Source: an uncultured Nitrospiraceae bacterium (GTDB lineage: Bacteria > Nitrospirota > Thermodesulfovibrionia > Thermodesulfovibrionales > Dissulfurispiraceae). From it: 64,000 bases of DNA. The notes below the pieces were generated by a model. The model ran no database searches, was not told the DNA's origin, and saw nothing but the letters and a program-made list of their open reading frames with translations. The DNA is taken from NCBI GenBank assembly GCA_903822005.1, contig CAIJNL010000036.1, forward strand, positions 62,001 through 126,000. Direction: 5' to 3'. A program made the position numbers and the translations under genes. This document shows positions 21,209 through 46,456 of the stretch, piece after piece. Each line of letters starts with the position of its first letter. Position 1 is the first letter of the stretch.

Positions 21209-21296
21209 AAACCCATCCTTTTTGAAAGGAATATCTTTGTGGAAAGGGAGGTATTTTTCCAGGAAGGTTGCAGTTTACATTTTGACTTATCACTGA

Positions 21297-21441
21297 CTGG
21301 ATGCAAGGGAAGAGGAGTGTAATTCTCCCGCTGCCCCGCAGCCGTAAAGGGAACGAAAGCCCAAACTAAGCCACTTTCATGGGTAATACCATGATGGGAA
21401 GGCGGGCGATTAGGGGGCCCTGAGCCGGAAGACCTGTCCAG
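21297..21441 (+). promoter_or_regulatory. Cobalamin riboswitch
   Basis: The segment contains the hallmarks of a B12 riboswitch: GGATGCAAGGGAA near the 5' side, CCGCTGCCCCGCAGCCGTAA in the core, and the B12 box GAGCCGGAAGACCTG at the 3' side. CTGGA and TCCAG close the P1 stem. It precedes btuB by 38 nt. No intrinsic terminator follows, and GAGGGGG just before the btuB ATG could be masked, so control at translation is likely: high cobalamin lowers btuB-btuF expression. Confidence 0.93.
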
Positions 21442-21479
21442 ATCAAAATCTTACCGGACTATTTTCCGAGGGGGAAAAA

Positions 21480-23504
21480 ATGGAAAAACCGTATTCGTCA
21501 GACAATTTATCAAAACGAAGTTTCCCAATCAGGGTATTCTGCTGTTCTTTATTTGGACTGCTTTTTATGCCTGCATTTTCATTTTCAGGGGAAAATCCAG
21601 AGATCCTTGATGAAGTAGTCGTTACCGCATCGCGTTATGAAGAGAAGCTTGCGAATGTGCCTGCCAATGTCACGGTCATCAATGAAGAGAGGATCAGGAA
21701 CTCCAATGCCAAAAATATAACCGACATCCTTAGAAGTGAAGGGGGAGTCAATGTGTCCGACATAGCGGGCAACCGCCGGTACTTTAGTGTTGATATCCGT
21801 GGGTTCGGCGAAAGCGGCCCTCTTAACACACTTGTGCTGGTAGACGGGCGCCGGGTCAACCAGGCTGACCTTAGCGGCACAGACTGGTCCCAGATACCGC
21901 TTGATCGCGTACAGAGGATAGAGATAATCAGGGGCGGAAGAGGGGCCGTCCTGTACGGAGATAATGCGTCCGGTGGTGTTGTAAATATCATCACAAAAGA
22001 GGGAGATAAACTGAAGGCCGGCGGCGAACTTGCCGCAGGCAGTTACAATACTTACAGCGCCAATGCCTTTGTCGGCGGCACTCTTGTCAATAACCTGCCT
22101 TTTTATGTTTCCGGCAGCTATCTTTTATCTGATGGGTACAGGGACAACAGCAGGCTTGAGTCAAAAGACACAGGTATGAATATAAGCTTATATGGCATCA
22201 AGGACCTCAAAATCAATATCGGGACCGGATACCATCAGGACGATAACCGGATGCCCGGGGCACTAAAAGAAAGCGATTTTAATGCAGGACGTCCGAGGAC
22301 ATCGACTACTCATCCAGGCGATTATGCGAAGATAGAGGACTACTATTTCAAGATTTCACCCGAATATTTCATGGCAAATAATGCGAGTCTCAAGATGGAC
22401 ATGTCTTACAGAAAGAGGACGTTCTCTTCTTATTCTTCAGGCGATTCCTGGAATTTTCTTGGGACGAGCGGAATCCAGACCATCGCTTTTTCTCCCCGGG
22501 CGACTATCAGGAATGATATCACCGGGGATATCTCCAATAATCTCGTAGCAGGCGCTGACTACCAGTGGTCACAAGAAGAGATCAGAAACAGGTCGGATTT
22601 TTTTGGATCTGTCTCCATAGGTGAATACAGGCTCAGCAAGTCGAACTACGGCGCTTATATTCACGACGAGGTTGCCATAGCCAAAAGACTCTTTTTGTCA
22701 ACGGGATATAGAAGAGACCAGGCTGACCTTACATTTAAGCCGAGCAGCCCAGACAGTCTGACCATGAGGACTCATGCCTGGACCGGCGGTGTTAATTACA
22801 ATTACCTGAACAAGTCCTATGTATATCTCGCCTATTCCAGGAGCTTCAGGTATCCCGTGCTCGACGAGTTATACAGTTATTATACAAACACCATTAATAC
22901 GTCTATGAAAACACAGACCTCTGACAGTTACGAGATCGGTACCAGGTTTTATTTCAGGGATGACATATATGCTCATATCAATCTCTTCAGGAGCGATACC
23001 GTGAATGAAATAATCTATAATCCTGTTACGTATGCGAACGAGAACATTGAAGGGATTGCCCGCCGAAACGGGCTGGAATTTTCACTCAGCGCCAGGGTGA
23101 TTGACTCGCTGACGCTAAGGGGAAATTATACATATGTCGACGCAAGGATGAGGGGCGGCATGTTTGGCGGGAAGCAGGTCCCTAATGTGCCCGAACATAA
23201 GGCCGGCATCGAAGGACAGTATTCTCCTTTCAGGGATTTTACAATGGTCCTTAATGGCACGTATGTTGGAGAAAGGCGCTTTATCAGCGACTTCCCTAAC
23301 GACTATTCGCGGCAGAAAAGTTATTTTCTGGCCAATAACAAATATAAATACAGGTGGAAGAATCTCACCCTGTTTCTGGATATTAATAATCTTTTTAACC
23401 AGAAATACTCGGAATACGGGGTGATTGGCGGTTTCCCGGCGGAAAAGGCGTATTATCCTTCGCCAGGTATTAATTTTTTCGGCGGCGTGAGGGTGGAGAT
23501 CTAA
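21480..23504 (+). CDS. btuB: TonB-dependent cobalamin receptor, BtuB-type
   Basis: The 674-residue outer membrane receptor has a signal peptide (about 1-37), a TonB box region DEVVVTASRYEE, a plug domain (about 50-160; VDGRRVNQADLSG, IEIIRGGRGAVLYGDNASGG) and a 22-strand barrel ending in GGVRVEI with an aromatic/aliphatic strand end. Control by a cobalamin riboswitch and the BtuF gene directly after it support vitamin B12 or another corrinoid as substrate. Energy would come from a TonB protein such as that at 10.4 kb. Confidence 0.93.
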   Translation: MEKPYSSDNLSKRSFPIRVFCCSLFGLLFMPAFSFSGENPEILDEVVVTASRYEEKLANVPANVTVINEERIRNSNAKNITDILRSEGGVNVSDIAGNRRYFSVDIRGFGESGPLNTLVLVDGRRVNQADLSGTDWSQIPLDRVQRIEIIRGGRGAVLYGDNASGGVVNIITKEGDKLKAGGELAAGSYNTYSANAFVGGTLVNNLPFYVSGSYLLSDGYRDNSRLESKDTGMNISLYGIKDLKINIGTGYHQDDNRMPGALKESDFNAGRPRTSTTHPGDYAKIEDYYFKISPEYFMANNASLKMDMSYRKRTFSSYSSGDSWNFLGTSGIQTIAFSPRATIRNDITGDISNNLVAGADYQWSQEEIRNRSDFFGSVSIGEYRLSKSNYGAYIHDEVAIAKRLFLSTGYRRDQADLTFKPSSPDSLTMRTHAWTGGVNYNYLNKSYVYLAYSRSFRYPVLDELYSYYTNTINTSMKTQTSDSYEIGTRFYFRDDIYAHINLFRSDTVNEIIYNPVTYANENIEGIARRNGLEFSLSARVIDSLTLRGNYTYVDARMRGGMFGGKQVPNVPEHKAGIEGQYSPFRDFTMVLNGTYVGERRFISDFPNDYSRQKSYFLANNKYKYRWKNLTLFLDINNLFNQKYSEYGVIGGFPAEKAYYPSPGINFFGGVRVEI

Positions 23505-23532
23505 CTTGACTGGCCCGGGGAGAACTCACTTG

Positions 23533-24351
23533 ATGCATTTAATCATTTCAGCTGTTTTGTTAATTATTTGCACATCGGTCGGTGTATTCGCCGCTCCGCC
23601 TAGCAGGATTATTTCACTAACGCCCAGTACAACCGAGTTGCTCTTTGCGCTTGGGCTTGAGGACAGGATTGTCGGTGTTACAAATGCCTGCGATTATCCC
23701 GCTGCTGCCCGTAAGAAGCCCCGGATAGGGTCCATGGTTACGCCCTCGATAGAGACCATCATGTCCATGCGGCCTGATCTTGTAGTGGCATCGTCCGACA
23801 GTGTTTCGCCGCAACTGATCGAGAGGCTGAACGGTCTTGGAATAAAGACCTATGTCATTCCCGGATATCGCCTTGCGGAATTTCCGCAGGCGTTGCGTAA
23901 ATTCGGCATAGCTGTCGGCAGGCAAAGGCAGGCCGGCAGGATGGCTGATAAGTTCGAGCATGACATTGCAGCTTTCCGGCAGTACGCGCTCAGCAAAGGT
24001 AAAAAACGCGCTGTTCTTTATCTGATATGGCCTGATCCGCCGATGGCGGCCGGCGCAGCCACGCCCATTCATGAGGCGCTTGAGGTGCTCGGGCTGCGGA
24101 ATGCAGGCATCTGCAGCCCGGCCTATTATCCGGTCTGTTCCCTGGAGGATATAATCGGGCGGGCACCTGACGCCATTATAATCGGAAGCGCGCATGCCGA
24201 TATAAGGGATCAGAGTATGGCGCTGATGCAGCACCTTCAAATGCTGCAGGCTGTGCGAAATGGACGGGTCTATTATGTCAGCGATCGTCTCTACCGGCTC
24301 GGGCCGAGGTTTACGGATGGATTGAAGGAATTAATAAATATATTGAAGTAA
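23533..24351 (+). CDS. btuF: Periplasmic cobalamin-binding protein BtuF-like
   Basis: The 272-residue product has a signal peptide (about 1-23) and a two-lobed class III binding-protein fold: RIISLTPSTTELLFALG, then DYPAAARKKPRIGSM and SIETIMSMRPDLVVA, all characteristic of BtuF and ferric siderophore binding proteins. ATG 23533 is preferred to an in-frame TTG at 23506 because GGGGAG sits about 10 nt upstream and the signal peptide starts there. The gap to btuB is 28 nt, so the riboswitch controls both. The BtuC/BtuD-like pair at 11.1-12.9 kb is the probable inner-membrane partner. Confidence 0.92.
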   Translation: MHLIISAVLLIICTSVGVFAAPPSRIISLTPSTTELLFALGLEDRIVGVTNACDYPAAARKKPRIGSMVTPSIETIMSMRPDLVVASSDSVSPQLIERLNGLGIKTYVIPGYRLAEFPQALRKFGIAVGRQRQAGRMADKFEHDIAAFRQYALSKGKKRAVLYLIWPDPPMAAGAATPIHEALEVLGLRNAGICSPAYYPVCSLEDIIGRAPDAIIIGSAHADIRDQSMALMQHLQMLQAVRNGRVYYVSDRLYRLGPRFTDGLKELINILK

Positions 24352-24389
24352 TGCAGGGCGTTTAAGGAGACCGTTCATAACAATTAATA

Positions 24390-24536
24390 GCCGGCAAGTT
24401 CACCCGCCTCTTGTCTCGCTGAAATAAGATCACTTCACCTTAAAGCCCGCAGTGTCAGAAAGACACATAGCACTATTGTCTGATAATGATCTAAAGCACG
24501 GAACACCCAGACATCGAGTCGGCTACCCTTGCCGGC
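24390..24536 (-). repeat. Structured repeat, module 2 (copy C, reverse)
   Basis: On the minus strand this 147-nt block matches the second half of the two-module repeats at 37764-37905 and 41250-41390. Ends pair as GCCGGCAAGGGTAGCC with GGGTGAACTTGCCGGC; the conserved 3' part reads AAGGTGAAGTG, then TCTTATT, then CAGCGAGACAAGAGGCGG. Module 1 is absent here, so module 2 can occur alone. It lies between btuF and the 3' end of glyS. Confidence 0.8.
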
Positions 24537-24572
24537 TTATGCCATTCAAGAAGACAGTCGTTAAGAAGTAGA

Positions 24573-26642
24573 TTAGATAAGCTTCGCGAAGTCGGCGATC
24601 GAGAAGGCTGTTGTCTGAACGGCCTTTATGAGGGCGAGTCGGTTCTGCTTTATTGCTTCATCCTTGTCCATAACAAGCACCTTGTCAAAGAAGGTATTGA
24701 TGGGTGCGGCAAGGCTGCTGATAGATGCGATAGCATCCGCATATTTCCGCGCAGCAACACCCTGCTCGATCTTAGGCTTGATATCGGAGAATGCGGCCCA
24801 GAGGGCCTTTTCTTCGTCCTGCACAAAGCGGCCTGTATCCGGCGGGGTCATGTCATCCACTGGAGCGATATTATTAACTCTTTTCATGAGCTGGAGAAAG
24901 AGTTCATAATTGGCTGCCTTTTTAAGCACGATGATGGCATCGGCGCGATCACGGATGGTAACGACCGGCTCTGTCCTCACAAAATGCGTAACTGCCGCAA
25001 CAGCGTCATAAGGATATCCTGCTGACTGGAGCAGGGGGTCGAGCCTCTGTTCAAAGAAGAGTATTATCTCGTCAATTATCTTAGTCTTGTCGCATTCCGG
25101 GTAAGGCTCAAGCGCCTTTGCAAAAAGATCGGCAAGAAGCAGCTCGCTCTTGGTCTGCGACAGGATCGAGATAATTCCCAGGGCCTGGCGTCTAAGGGCA
25201 AAGGGATCTTCGGTGCCGCTCGGTGCCATTCCAAGCATAAAGAAAGAAGCGATGCTGTCGATCCTGTCGGCAAGGCTTATTACAATACCGAGCTCGCTGG
25301 AAGGAATGCGGTCACCCGAAAAGGCCGGAAGATACTGTTCGGATATGGCGAGAGCAACATCTTTTCCGAGGCCGTCATTCAGTGCGTAATAGCTTCCCAT
25401 AATGCCTTGCAGCTCAGGGAACTCAAATACTACGCCTGATATCAGGTCCACCTTTGAGAGGCGGCCTGCATTCCCGGCGTCCACTATACGGGCAGGGCAG
25501 CTTTTTTCAGCGATATATTTTGCCAAAACTGAGATACGTTCGCTCTTGGCATGTACTGTGCCAAGTTTGTCATGGAAGACTACCTTTTTCAGTCCCTCAA
25601 GGCGCTCGGCCAGGGATATCTTTTTGTCGTCTTCATAGTAGAATCGGGCATCCTCAAAACGGGCCTTGATCACCTTCTGTGCCCCTCTTGCGACCATGGC
25701 AGCATTTTCCTGCTTTGTGTTGCTTACAACAACGAAATGGTTGGTAAGTTTGCCGTTATTTCCCCTGATCGCAAAATATTTCTGATGGCCCTTCATAACC
25801 GTGATCAGCAGTTCCTCCGGCAGACTGAGATATTGAACCGGGAAGGTACCGAGGACGGGCACAGGATACTCTACGAGATATGCGACGTGATTCAATAAAG
25901 TTTCGTCTTCAACTATCGATGCGTCAATGGACAAGGCCAGCTGGCGTGCGCCGTCCAGGATCATTTTCTTGCGTTCTTCTGTGTCCAGCACAACAAGGTT
26001 ATCTTTAAGGGCATTAAAATATGTGCGGTCATCCCTGACATCAACTACTACAGGCGAAAGAAAACGGTGTCCACGGGTAGATATACCGCTTTTTATGCCT
26101 TCGATCTCGAAGCCGACCGGTTCATTCCGGTAAAGGGCAAGAATCCAGTGAATTGGGCGTGGAAAGCGTATTGATCCTTCGCCCCATCTCATGGATTTTG
26201 GGAAAGCGAGGCTCAGAATCAGTTTTGCAAGCAATTCCGGAAGCAGGCCAGCGGTTGGATTGGCAGATTCTTTTATAGCTGCTACCAGATAGGTGCCTTT
26301 ACCTTTTTCCTTGCGGAGCAGGGCCTCGATGGCCATGCCATTGGATCTGGCAAAGGCCTCAGCCGCTTTTGTCGGTTTGTTGTCCTTGTCAAAAGCGACA
26401 TTCACGGGAGGGCCCCATACTTCCTTCTCATTTTCGGTCTGTGACTCAGCGATTTCCGCGATCAGTGCAAGTCTTCTGGGTGTGGCAAAAGCGCGGATAT
26501 CGCCGTATGGAATGCGCTGTTCCGTCAATAGGCCCGCAGCATTCTCTTTCAGCTTGGCGATTGCCTCGGGTAGAAAACGCGCAGGGATCTCTTCGGTCCC
26601 TATTTCGAGAAGCAGGCGTGGATATGTTCCGGCACTTGCCAT
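24573..26642 (-). CDS. glyS: Glycyl-tRNA synthetase beta subunit
   Basis: The 689-residue product matches the beta subunit of the tetrameric bacterial GlyRS, which binds tRNA-Gly. Typical segments are LLLEIGTEEIPARFLP at the N-terminus, FPKSMRWGEGSIRFPRPIHWI, and DPFALRRQALGII in the HD-like domain, with an anticodon-binding C-terminus. Its start overlaps the last base of glyQ, so the two subunits are coupled in translation. Confidence 0.98.
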   Translation of the reverse strand: MASAGTYPRLLLEIGTEEIPARFLPEAIAKLKENAAGLLTEQRIPYGDIRAFATPRRLALIAEIAESQTENEKEVWGPPVNVAFDKDNKPTKAAEAFARSNGMAIEALLRKEKGKGTYLVAAIKESANPTAGLLPELLAKLILSLAFPKSMRWGEGSIRFPRPIHWILALYRNEPVGFEIEGIKSGISTRGHRFLSPVVVDVRDDRTYFNALKDNLVVLDTEERKKMILDGARQLALSIDASIVEDETLLNHVAYLVEYPVPVLGTFPVQYLSLPEELLITVMKGHQKYFAIRGNNGKLTNHFVVVSNTKQENAAMVARGAQKVIKARFEDARFYYEDDKKISLAERLEGLKKVVFHDKLGTVHAKSERISVLAKYIAEKSCPARIVDAGNAGRLSKVDLISGVVFEFPELQGIMGSYYALNDGLGKDVALAISEQYLPAFSGDRIPSSELGIVISLADRIDSIASFFMLGMAPSGTEDPFALRRQALGIISILSQTKSELLLADLFAKALEPYPECDKTKIIDEIILFFEQRLDPLLQSAGYPYDAVAAVTHFVRTEPVVTIRDRADAIIVLKKAANYELFLQLMKRVNNIAPVDDMTPPDTGRFVQDEEKALWAAFSDIKPKIEQGVAARKYADAIASISSLAAPINTFFDKVLVMDKDEAIKQNRLALIKAVQTTAFSIADFAKLI

Positions 26643-29758: not shown

Positions 29759-29762
29759 TAAC

Positions 29763-29856
29763 ATAGCCTGGGGGAGGTTATAGCCTGAGAGTTTCCCGAT
29801 GAGGGAAAGACCCCTGAACCTGATCCAGTTAATTCTGGCGGAGGAAATGGGATAGT
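29763..29856 (+). promoter_or_regulatory. TPP (thiamine pyrophosphate) riboswitch
   Basis: Thi-box features: GGGGGAGG, CCTGAGAG, ACCCCTGAACCTGATCCAG, then TTAATTCTGGCGGAGGAAAT. Binding of TPP should stabilise the aptamer and allow the terminator immediately downstream to form, lowering thi gene expression. Confidence 0.95.
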
Positions 29857-29866
29857 TTAAGAAGCC

Positions 29867-37568: not shown

Positions 37569-37590
37569 TATTGTGTAGTATATATTCTGG

Positions 37591-37905
37591 CTTTGAAGGC
37601 TCTGAATCTCGGCTCGCCAAATAAGCTCAGTAACTTTGACCTGGCACAGAATCGAAAATAATCACCATCTTTCGCCGAGAAGTCGCTCAACGACCGCGGC
37701 GAGCCATCGATCCTATCGCCTTCCAATCCAACCGTTAAGTAGAATAAATGTTTCAGGCGGGGCGGGCAAGGGTAGCCGACATGATGTCTCGGTGTGACCT
37801 TGCTTTAGAGTCTAATCGGTAATGGTGATGTGCGTATTTCAGATAATGCGGTAGTTAATGTGAAGTGGTGTTATTCAGCGAGACAAGAGGCGGATATCCT
37901 TGCCT
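37591..37905 (+). repeat. Structured two-module repeat, copy A
   Basis: Module 1 (37591-37726) has outer arms CTTTGAAGG / CCTTCCAA and an inner stem GGCTCGCC (37611-37618) / GGCGAGCC (37698-37705). Module 2 (37764-37905) has end arms GGGCAAGGGTAGCC / GGATATCCTTGCCT and an inner stem TGTCTCG / CGAGACA. It aligns along its length with copy B at 41072-41390; differences in the stems tend to be compensated. It fills most of the 522-nt gap between ndk and the Gly/Tyr-rich protein gene. No frame is conserved. Confidence 0.88.
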
Positions 37906-38030
37906 GTATTTATTCATAATTATTCATAATCCCTTCGAGACTGCTTCATAATTGTTTGATATCATTTAATTATAAAGGGCAGCGGATCATGAAAATTATT
38001 AACGGGTTAAATTTAAGGGAGGTAAATATA

Positions 38031-39964: not shown

Positions 39965-41071
39965 ATGATCGAGAAAAAGAACCTGGTTACCGAAAAAGAT
40001 GTTTTCTTCATGAAGCGCGCGCTCAGGCTTGCTGAAAAGGCGAGAGGGATGACCAGCCCCAATCCGCTTGTCGGTGCTGTCCTCACGAAGAACGGTAAAA
40101 TCATAGCAGAAGATTACCACAAAAAATCTGGTGAGCCACATGCTGAAGCCCTGGCAATTCTGAAAGCGAAGGGAAAGGCTAAAGACGCTGCCCTGTATGT
40201 TACGCTTGAACCCTGCTGCCATACTGATAAAAAAACACCCCCATGCTGTCCCTCGATAGTAAAAGCCGGTATCAGTAAGGTTTTTGTTGCGATGAGAGAT
40301 CCCAATCCGAAGGTTTCGGGCAAAGGGATTAAGATGCTGCGCGATCATGGACTGATTGTGATCGAAGGTGTCCTTGAAGATAAGGCAAAAAAGCTTAATG
40401 AGGCATACTGCAAGTTTATCGCGACCAACAGGCCTTTTGTCACACTGAAAGCTGCCATGACGCTCGATGGTAAGATCGCTACGCCGGAGGGTGAATCGAA
40501 ATGGATTACCGGAGAGACAGCGAGAAAGATTGTTCATCAAATGCGCTGCAATTCGGATGGGGTGATGACTGCAATAGGAACGGTAAAAGCGGATAATCCT
40601 GAGCTTACCAGCCGAGTCAAATGTTCGAGACAACCGGTCCGGATTATCATTGATCCCGCACTGGAAACTCCGCCCGACTTCAATGTCTGCAGCGTGCCGC
40701 CCGAGACCATTTTTGTCACTCGCAGGGGTAATGACGAAAAGAAGAGCGTTTTGCGGGCAAAAGGCCTTCATTTCATCGAGTTCACCGGCAAAAGAGTCGA
40801 GTTGCCCTGGCTTATGGACAGGCTCGGCAGCATGGGAATAACTTCCGTGATGATCGAAGCCGGTTCGTCGTTTAACGCAAGTACGCTTAAGGCAGGGATT
40901 GTTGACAAGGTCATTTTTTTTATCGCGCCCAAGATCATCTGCGGTAAGGCATCGCTGCCGGTAGTTGGCGGGGACTTCTTCATAAAGCTCAATGATGCAA
41001 TTTACCTTTCCGATATCACTGTCAGGATGGTTGGGGCGGATATTATGGTGGAAGGGTATATAGTAAAGTAG
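39965..41071 (+). CDS. ribD: Riboflavin biosynthesis protein RibD
   Basis: The 368-residue bifunctional enzyme performs deamination and reduction of the pyrimidine intermediate in riboflavin synthesis. The N-terminal deaminase (about 10-150) has the zinc site HAEALA and PCCHTDKKTPPC; the C-terminal reductase (about 155-367) begins FVTLKAAMTLDGKIAT and has SVMIEAGSSFNAS. Other rib genes are not adjacent. Copy B of the structured repeat begins on the base after its stop codon, so the repeat would be part of its 3' untranslated region. Confidence 0.96.
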   Translation: MIEKKNLVTEKDVFFMKRALRLAEKARGMTSPNPLVGAVLTKNGKIIAEDYHKKSGEPHAEALAILKAKGKAKDAALYVTLEPCCHTDKKTPPCCPSIVKAGISKVFVAMRDPNPKVSGKGIKMLRDHGLIVIEGVLEDKAKKLNEAYCKFIATNRPFVTLKAAMTLDGKIATPEGESKWITGETARKIVHQMRCNSDGVMTAIGTVKADNPELTSRVKCSRQPVRIIIDPALETPPDFNVCSVPPETIFVTRRGNDEKKSVLRAKGLHFIEFTGKRVELPWLMDRLGSMGITSVMIEAGSSFNASTLKAGIVDKVIFFIAPKIICGKASLPVVGGDFFIKLNDAIYLSDITVRMVGADIMVEGYIVK

Positions 41072-41390
41072 CTGTATTCGAAGGCTCTGAATCTCGGCTC
41101 GCCAAATAAACTCAGTGACCTTTAACTAACACAGCTTCGGAAATAATCAGTATCTTTTTCCTGAGAAGCTACTCAACGACGGCGGCGAGCCTTCGATCCT
41201 ATCACCTCCGAATACAGTTGCTAATAACAGTCCATGTCGTATGCATAGAGGGCAGGGGCAGCCGACTCGATGTCTCGCGTTCCTTGCTTTAGAGTGTTAT
41301 CAGATAATAGTGAAATGCGTCTTTCAGATTATGCGGTTGTTAAGGTGAAGTGGTCTTATTCAGCGAGACAAGAGGCGGATGCCTCTGCCC
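41072..41390 (+). repeat. Structured two-module repeat, copy B
   Basis: Module 1 (41072-41217): arms CTGTATTCGAAGG / CCTCCGAATACAG (one mismatch) with inner stem GGCTCGCC (41096-41103) / GGCGAGCC (41184-41191). Module 2 (41250-41390): arms GGGCAGGGGCAGCC / GGATGCCTCTGCCC and inner stem TGTCTCGC / GCGAGACA. Spacing between modules is about 33 nt, the same as in copy A. Relative to copy A, stem positions change in pairs (G-C to A-U, C-G to U-A). It occupies the gap between ribD and hemW. Confidence 0.88.
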
Positions 41391-41439
41391 GCACTTACCC
41401 ATCTATGTAAGCGGATGTCTTTTGAGGTTACAATAACAT

Positions 41440-42564
41440 ATGGCCCGCTATCTCTATCTTCATGTCCCATTCTGCATCCGGAAATGCATCTACTGTGATT
41501 TCTATTCCGTGCCTGACTCACTGGAGCGTATTGACGATTATGTTGCGGCCCTCTGTAAAGAGATTGAATCGAGAAAGGCTTCGGTTGGTCTGCTTGAGGC
41601 TGTTTATATCGGCGGCGGTACCCCCTCCATCCTTGAAGAAAAGCATTTTTCTCAAATAATGAACGCCATCAGAAATAACTGTTCATTCCGAGGTGACGCT
41701 GAAATCAGCGTGGAGTCTAATCCCGGCACGCTCACTGGACCGAAGATCGGGGCAATGCTCGCCTCAGGAATAAATAGAATCAGCATCGGCATTCAATCTT
41801 TTAATGACGAGGAACTAGTATTGCTGGGCAGGATGCATAGCTCCGAAGAGGCCACAAGTGCTGTTATCGCTGCCAGGGAAGGGGGATTCAGGAATCTCTC
41901 CATCGATCTGATATACGGCTTGCCCGGTCAGACAGCTGAGAACTGGCAAGATACCCTTGGCAAGGCCATCGATCTGCGCCCTGAACATATATCTGCCTAT
42001 GAACTCACTCCTGAAAAAGAGACTCCGTTATTTCATATGCTCGAAAAAAGTGAGCTTGTGATGCCGGATGACGATGTCATCGCAGACATGTACTACCAAA
42101 CAATCGATACCCTTGCCAGAGCTGGATATGAGCATTACGAGATATCCAATTTCGCCATGCCGGGCTTTAGATGCAGACATAACATCAACTATTGGGACAG
42201 GGGTGAATATCTCGGAATCGGTGCAGGGGCGCATTCTTTTGTTGAGGCAACGCGCTCTTCTAGTGTCGCTGATGTCAATAAATATATAGTGGCAATAAGA
42301 AATAGCGAGCCGCCGGTCACAGAAGATAGTGTGGAAACAGACCTGGATGCCCTTAAGGAAACCATATTCCTCGGACTCAGAAAAACTGAGGGTTTCGATA
42401 TTCGGCTTGTTCCGGACAGGCAGATGGACAGGATGAAACAGGCCCTGCGAGATCTGTCTCAACAGGGCCTGATCGAAATTTCGGGCAATATGCTCAGCCT
42501 CACGCGCAAGGGGCTGATGCTATGCAACGAAGTTATTGTGCGTTTAATGTTACGTATTGATTGA
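41440..42564 (+). CDS. hemW: Radical SAM haem chaperone HemW
   Basis: The 374-residue protein has the radical SAM motif near the N-terminus in PFCIRKCIYCDFYS, then YIGGGTPSIL, RISIGIQSFNDEEL and DLIYGLPGQT, with the C-terminal HemN-like domain. HemW (formerly called HemN-like coproporphyrinogen dehydrogenase) binds haem and is thought to deliver it to membrane proteins rather than oxidise coproporphyrinogen. Its last 32 nt overlap the 3' end of the opposite degP gene. Confidence 0.93.
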   Translation: MARYLYLHVPFCIRKCIYCDFYSVPDSLERIDDYVAALCKEIESRKASVGLLEAVYIGGGTPSILEEKHFSQIMNAIRNNCSFRGDAEISVESNPGTLTGPKIGAMLASGINRISIGIQSFNDEELVLLGRMHSSEEATSAVIAAREGGFRNLSIDLIYGLPGQTAENWQDTLGKAIDLRPEHISAYELTPEKETPLFHMLEKSELVMPDDDVIADMYYQTIDTLARAGYEHYEISNFAMPGFRCRHNINYWDRGEYLGIGAGAHSFVEATRSSSVADVNKYIVAIRNSEPPVTEDSVETDLDALKETIFLGLRKTEGFDIRLVPDRQMDRMKQALRDLSQQGLIEISGNMLSLTRKGLMLCNEVIVRLMLRID

Positions 42565-46192: not shown

Positions 46193-46456
46193 ATGAAGAA
46201 ATTTGTCGTGTTATTTGTAGCCGCAGCATTTTTTGCGGCTTTTACGTTGACGGGCTGCAATCAGCAACCGGCGCCGCCGCCTGTGCAGGGACCGCCTGGA
46301 GCGCCTGGACCGCAGGGAGCGCCTGGAGTACAGGGAGTGCAGGGAGCACCCGCGCAAGGAGCGCCTGTTCAGGGACAGCAGGGAGTTCAGGGACAGCAGG
46401 GCCCGCAGGGAGTGCAGGGACCGCAGGGAGCACCCGCACCGGAAAAAAAGTATTAG
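46193..46456 (+). CDS. Collagen-like lipoprotein
   Basis: The 87-residue product has a lipoprotein signal with lipobox LTGC (Cys22), so it should be lipid-anchored in the envelope. From residue 31 to about 80 the chain is a Gly-X-Y-type repeat made mostly of VQG, PQG, QQG and GAP triplets, like bacterial collagen-like proteins, though short and with few hydroxylatable prolines. AAGGAGGTG gives a perfect ribosome site. A strong hairpin follows the stop. Whether it forms a triple helix is unknown. Confidence 0.8.
   Translation: MKKFVVLFVAAAFFAAFTLTGCNQQPAPPPVQGPPGAPGPQGAPGVQGVQGAPAQGAPVQGQQGVQGQQGPQGVQGPQGAPAPEKKY
46283..46432 (+). repeat. Short tandem coding repeat of Gly-X-Y triplets
   Basis: Imperfect 9-nt units built on CAGGGAGTG and CAGGGACAG encode the collagen-like part of the lipoprotein. 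Such tracts readily expand or contract, so length may vary among strains. Confidence 0.75.

Follow-up and report, generated by a model that had tools for sequence, protein, structure and literature searches.

The window, a 64,000-nt stretch from the genome of an uncultured Nitrospiraceae bacterium, contains a solitary copy of a large hairpin module, m2, which is one of many in this genome. With a probability of roughly one half, we interpret these copies as a lineage-restricted, non-autonomous mobile family with BIME/REPIN organisation, whose folded single strands would be acted on by an enzyme with its gene elsewhere. The family appears to be dispersed and non-coding and to be built of three modules (m1, m2 and m3), mostly set in head-to-head pairs and otherwise found singly or in threes. 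It would have spread in the lineage as REPINs and BIMEs are thought to, as single-stranded DNA, with the folded modules recognised by that enzyme. The usual mobile unit would be the pair (m1-m2 or m3-m2), and a lone m2 such as the one at 24390-24536 would be either derived, through loss of its partner, or a single-module insertion. This reading starts from the number of copies and their placement between genes, from the homology of the modules, their covariation and the single strand on which each folds, and from absence from relatives and one empty site.

Genomic setting of the solitary module

The features of the window that belong to the family, and the neighbours of the lone copy, are collected in Table 1. 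Read as its reverse complement, 24390-24536 is a complete m2, alignable over its full length with those at 37.7 and 41.2 kb, in agreement with the initial annotation. In the alignment of the reverse complement of 24370-24556 with these two copies, mean column identity is 82% and an 18-nt stretch, CAGCGAGACAAGAGGCGG, is identical in all three m2 copies. The absence of m1 from the 5′ side, also annotated at the outset, was borne out: none was detected, the glyS-like gene ends there at 24573, and no m1 or m3 ends came up at p < 0.01 when the adjoining 90 nt on either side were scanned specifically for them. The arms pair as described and do carry the GCC/GGC extension, but the pairing is not special to this copy, and the extra terminal pairs differ between m2 copies, with compensation.

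Table 1. Family modules in the window and neighbours of the lone copy.
Feature	Position	Strand	Basis	Setting
Lone m2 module (subject of the study)	24390..24536	-	blastn, alignment, covariance model, RNA fold	
glyS-like gene	24573..26642	-		neighbour; stop 36 nt from outer stem of lone m2
Periplasmic-binding-protein-like gene	23506..24351	+		neighbour; converges on lone m2
m1	37587..37734	-	blastn, model search	head-to-head m1-m2 pair
m2	37761..37910	+	blastn, model search	pair partner of m1 at 37587..37734
m1	41071..41221	-	blastn, model search	second head-to-head pair; directly 3′ of RibD-like gene stop
m2	41245..41395	+	blastn, model search	second pair; ahead of hemW-like start at 41440

Folded as RNA, the canonical strand of the lone copy reaches -60.4 kcal/mol (z = -4.5; none of 200 shuffles as good) and its complement -43.1 kcal/mol (z -3.6). 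As single-stranded DNA, too, the canonical strand is more stable than its shuffles (z -4.1). The copy scores 131.7 bits with the m2 covariance model and 133.9 bits in the comparison of lone and paired copies. Because it is this well preserved and has no partner remnant, it may have arisen either by true insertion of a single module or by a clean partner loss. At this site the glyS stop was located in one relative only (G007), where the neighbour is different and an empty site is not readable.

A Cobalamin riboswitch, a TonB-receptor-like gene and the periplasmic-binding-protein-like gene, whose product presumably has that function, follow one another at 21266-24351 of the window. Judging by the gene functions, this is probably a vitamin B12 uptake operon. 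A TPP riboswitch lies at 29760-29863, and a tandem array of 9-nt units at 46260-46437 has the potential to code for a collagen-like stretch.

Copies, module types and arrangement

In the source genome (3,231,892 bases in 48 contigs), blastn with the lone m2 gave 40 matches, 36 of them at least 125 nt long, and blastn with m1 gave 13. Profile searches resolved three types, with 38 strong m2 copies in addition to weaker ones, 11 strong m1 and 15 full m3. With an E cut-off of 0.1, the m2 covariance model (R1) returned 76 matches, a figure that is not an m2 copy number, since m1, m3 and opposite-strand palindrome matches are among them. Single modules are about 140-145 nt long, and an m1-m2 or m3-m2 pair is about 330 nt.

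Modules of at least 14 bits, in stretches chosen around the blastn and model matches, form 52 clusters, none of which overlaps a predicted gene (gene calls by a simple custom script). Complete head-to-head two-module clusters number 18 (10 m3-m2 and 8 m1-m2), two more are complete tail-to-tail m2/m3 arrangements, and eight hold three modules or partial members. The modules do separate, as had been proposed: a single full m2 makes up 17 of the 52 clusters and a single partial m2 four, while m1 stands alone in two and m3 in one. Lone m2 copies are thus common, and no remnant is detectable beside the one in the window, so it is not a truncated exception among copies that otherwise all contain both modules.

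The initial annotation had further taken m2 for the mobile or functional unit and m1 for an accessory. This view finds no support, as m1 is itself a homologous hairpin in the opposite orientation, also occurs solo, and can be replaced by m3. The three types share one order of parts: the 5′ strand is TCGA...CTCG-like, the apical part varies, and the 3′ strand follows TTATT/GATT-CAGC(G/A)AG(A/C)C-AGA. The m2 model reaches up to 42 bits on m1 copies; this cross match alone is not decisive, because the model also reaches up to 41 bits on the opposite strand of m2 itself. On one m3 copy it gives 64 bits in the canonical orientation. Judged by the aligned motif and the 64-bit m3 match, m1, m2 and m3 are homologous hairpin modules. 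Their outer ends differ between m1/m3 and m2.

Three m1 copies (C2:280530, C35:about 14680 and C45:about 85560) are cut down to little beyond the outer stem, a small hairpin of the TCTTCG...CGAAGAC type, and represent repeated loss of the module interior.

Lone versus paired copies

Lone and paired m2 copies differ in preservation. Scores below 110 bits were found for 7 of 18 lone full-length copies and for none of 27 paired ones, a difference that is significant as a count (Fisher test, p = 0.0007) but not by ranks (p = 0.09), and the most decayed full-length m2 copies are all lone. In the account of REPINs in PMC3116915, greater decay of lone units is taken to mean that the doublet is the mobile unit. 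Against a strictly pair-only unit stand the well-preserved lone m2 copies, 11 of the 18 scoring at least 130 bits. A partner remnant lies within 90 nt in 3 of the 11 lone m2 copies that score above 100 bits, and the lone m2 at C2:280597 adjoins an internally deleted m1. Older copies may look lone through decay of the partner past detection.

Conservation of the fold and of the folding strand

In the alignment of 38 m2 copies, 93.7% of the 1025 cells in 27 base pairs are paired. Changes on both sides occur in 13 of the 27 pairs (59 cells), compared with shuffled means of 7.2 pairs and 21.4 cells; none of 500 shuffles was as high, and these counts are not to be read as probabilities, as the m2 copies are related. 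When the structure was slid by 1-3 columns, 35-48% of cells remained paired, with 9-16 double changes. For m3, double changes were found in 10 of 24 pairs.

Single departures from pairing at the same 27 m2 pairs are G.T in 63 cases and A.C in 13; G.T outnumbers A.C in 18 columns, and the reverse is seen in none. The corresponding counts for m1 are 38 and 2, but G.U is the commonest form in three m1 pairs. The consensus is much more stable on the canonical strand (canonical vs. other strand: -24.1 vs. -6.9 for m2 and -30.0 vs. -16.2 for m1). As G.T lies far above A.C, folding belongs to one defined strand in every module; and since pair partners are oppositely oriented, a module that folds well is present on either strand of a pair. 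Mean column identity across the 38 copies is 80%, and the 34 invariant columns include unpaired ones. Covariation that arose after dispersal means that the fold is still under selection, or that selection acted on it in copy lineages that went on spreading.

Covariation could also be mutational in origin. Palindromes are prone to template switching from one arm to the other, and in an imperfect palindrome this would copy changes across without selection for folding. The copy at C12:13829, in which the outer stem has been swapped wholesale with pairing retained, fits such a process. The ratio of 63:13 for G.T over A.C is unexpected from arm-to-arm copying, unpaired columns are invariant as well, and we consider this explanation highly improbable.

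The same data bear on the main rival to a mobile family, namely that the modules are structured small-RNA genes, or a regulatory RNA element in many copies, that multiplied in the lineage and were kept for an RNA function. Strong covariation, mismatches of the G.U type and invariant paired and unpaired stretches in 38 diverged m2 copies speak for such a function, and some diverged lone copies, such as C2:247486 and C12:13829, retain every pair of the model. On the other side, pair partners differ in the strand that folds, the arrangement of copies is variable, internal deletions occur, and pairs are broken in the decayed copies C14:180884 and C6:6746. We regard the RNA explanation as unlikely, also in view of gene orientation and the Rfam searches (see below).

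Gene context, insertion sites and mobility

With respect to neighbouring genes on the same strand, m2 is sense in 9 and antisense in 12 of 24 contexts, with one mixed and two without m2. This unbiased orientation argues against a cis leader, a 3′ element or a cis-acting RNA, and so counts against the RNA explanation. Convergent gene pairs are over-represented, at 16 of 51 against a baseline of 21 of 154 (p = 0.006) taken from the same fetched stretches, with genes from a simple custom script. A terminator was rejected as a general function, as many copies are antisense or lie between divergent genes.

One locus shows the state without modules. Between the RibD-like and hemW-like genes, which we named from their sequences, the gap is 368 nt in the source genome and is filled by the m1-m2 pair; it is about 17 nt in one relative (G012) and 51 nt in another (G021), as counted from translations. 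The site is thus empty in two relatives, and it is the single such site seen.

Among 10 lone m2 copies and 21 two-module clusters, no target-site duplication was clearly above chance at any offset; the best offsets, out of many tried, gave 2-mers only, in 3 of 10 and 5 of 21 cases. No defined target sequence of the kind envisaged initially emerged, apart from a weak AAG consensus at the foot of m2 on the 5′ side (A in 27 and G in 30 of 38 copies), with a slight T preference 3′. Of the 38 aligned m2 copies, one has GTAG immediately 5′ of its stem. Nearest-neighbour identity between copies is 76-87%, so there are no recent copies and mobility must be past or rare.

These data also bear on an ordinary MITE, an internally deleted DNA transposon whose mobility depends on recognition of terminal inverted repeats by a DDE transposase. 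The pair of about 330 nt, its intergenic dispersal and the empty site, a MITE trait present here at one locus in two relatives, would suit such an element. The lack of flank duplication clearly above chance, outer ends of m1/m3 and m2 that do not form one terminal repeat, and a separate covarying stem in each module do not, and this makes a MITE distinctly unlikely. Shared terminal inverted repeats of the MITE type were also rejected directly, as the ends of m1, m2 and m3 differ.

The source genome contains three Y1-transposase genes, none with a module nearby, so that no mobiliser could be tied to the family. Two of the three have inverted repeats of their own: a 281-aa, TIRtron-like Y1-transposase gene at C42:25537-25866 (L221:1950-2893) has a flanking 36-nt inverted repeat (86%), and the Y1 gene on C26 lies within a perfect 17-nt inverted repeat. 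As a candidate autonomous version, we considered the gene that two m3 copies flank on C11, which proved to be an ordinary, presumably phosphatase-like gene. Against a mobile family, then, stand the missing mobiliser, target-site duplication, GTAG tag and recent copies, and the restriction to one empty site.

Comparison with known repeat families

Integron attC sites have AAC/GTT core boxes at their stem ends. The module stem ends are GGC/GCC, and identity with attC was rejected.

As far as REPINs and BIMEs are described in the sources cited here, the family resembles them in its intergenic palindromic units, which form inverted pairs, mostly head-to-head and also tail-to-tail, or are single or clustered, in the pairing of unlike units, in compensatory changes and in the greater decay of lone units. 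REP dimers and BIMEs alternate in orientation, with a head-to-head majority, a tail-to-tail minority and threes (PMC3733652, PMC3116915), and inverted pairs of this kind account for 18 head-to-head and 2 tail-to-tail complete clusters of our 52. Unlike REPs, which measure 20-40 bp (PMC3733652), the modules are about 145 nt long with a large conserved apical region. They also lack the GTAG/CGTC tag and an adjoining RAYT; no RAYT gene flanked by modules was found among the three Y1 genes of the source genome.

In size, dispersal and predicted common fold, the modules are like bcr1, ERIC, YPAL and NEMIS, stem-loop repeats of about 100-170 bp, from which, as these are described in PMC2267715, they are set apart by three module types in head-to-head pairs. 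TIRtrons/TIRYTs are Y1 transposases with long terminal repeats (PMC3733652); genes of this type are present in the source genome (C42, with its 36-nt inverted repeat), but their repeats differ from the modules.

If the family is indeed mobile, organisation of the BIME/REPIN kind is not bound to 20-40 bp units and RAYTs, and the same kinds of pair are formed by three homologous module types several times larger than REPs. With the questions of which strand folds and which protein binds it, the family then offers a clean test of how non-coding repeats spread and of the reason for which their folds are conserved. A further proposal, rather unlikely in our estimate, is a new repeat class of large, strand-specific hairpins, confined to one lineage, in which three paralogous types in head-to-head pairs would be the recognition units of a single-strand-DNA or RNA-guided process, the fold being under selection in each copy.

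Distribution

Both forms of m2, solo and with m1, were found in the source genome but not across the lineage: the m2 model gave no confident match in any of the order's 175 further genomes, where weak partial hits in G075 (20.6 bits) and G080 (20.2 bits) were taken as chance. The same model had no matches in a sample of 394 further genomes of the phylum, and the R3 model none in the other 175 of the order; the R2 model was searched in the source genome. No close DNA relatives of the module were found in 39 related genomes. A strict pattern had no matches in plasmid and phage collections, nor in viral contigs and genome contigs from 84,980 species, a set from which the source genome may be left out.

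On the module, Rfam gave no match at the gathering score, a further point against the RNA explanation; the only match on that stretch lay on the opposite strand and reached 17.3 bits (E 7.7) against a gathering score of 40. Over the whole window, Rfam matched two riboswitches and two tRNAs only. The family is not described in any title or abstract start from our literature search, in which sequences are not searchable, and this hints that it may be undescribed so far.

A loose 20-nt motif gave 29 hits, against about 30 expected by chance by our own estimate. None was a full module by HMM, about ten belong to another repeat, and ten viral hits match in the motif alone; as these are only motif matches, we do not claim homology with them. 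The other repeat occurs mostly in gammaproteobacteria, as in Thiohalobacter thiocyanaticus (NZ_QZMU01000001.1; L156:6261-6575) and at L160, L165, L169, L170, L182 and L175. It has no Rfam match at the gathering score, and 24 blastn matches were found in one genome. Its conserved core of about 210 nt (TTCAG...CTGAA) lies between arms of about 30 nt, which differ among copies and are nearly perfectly complementary within each copy.
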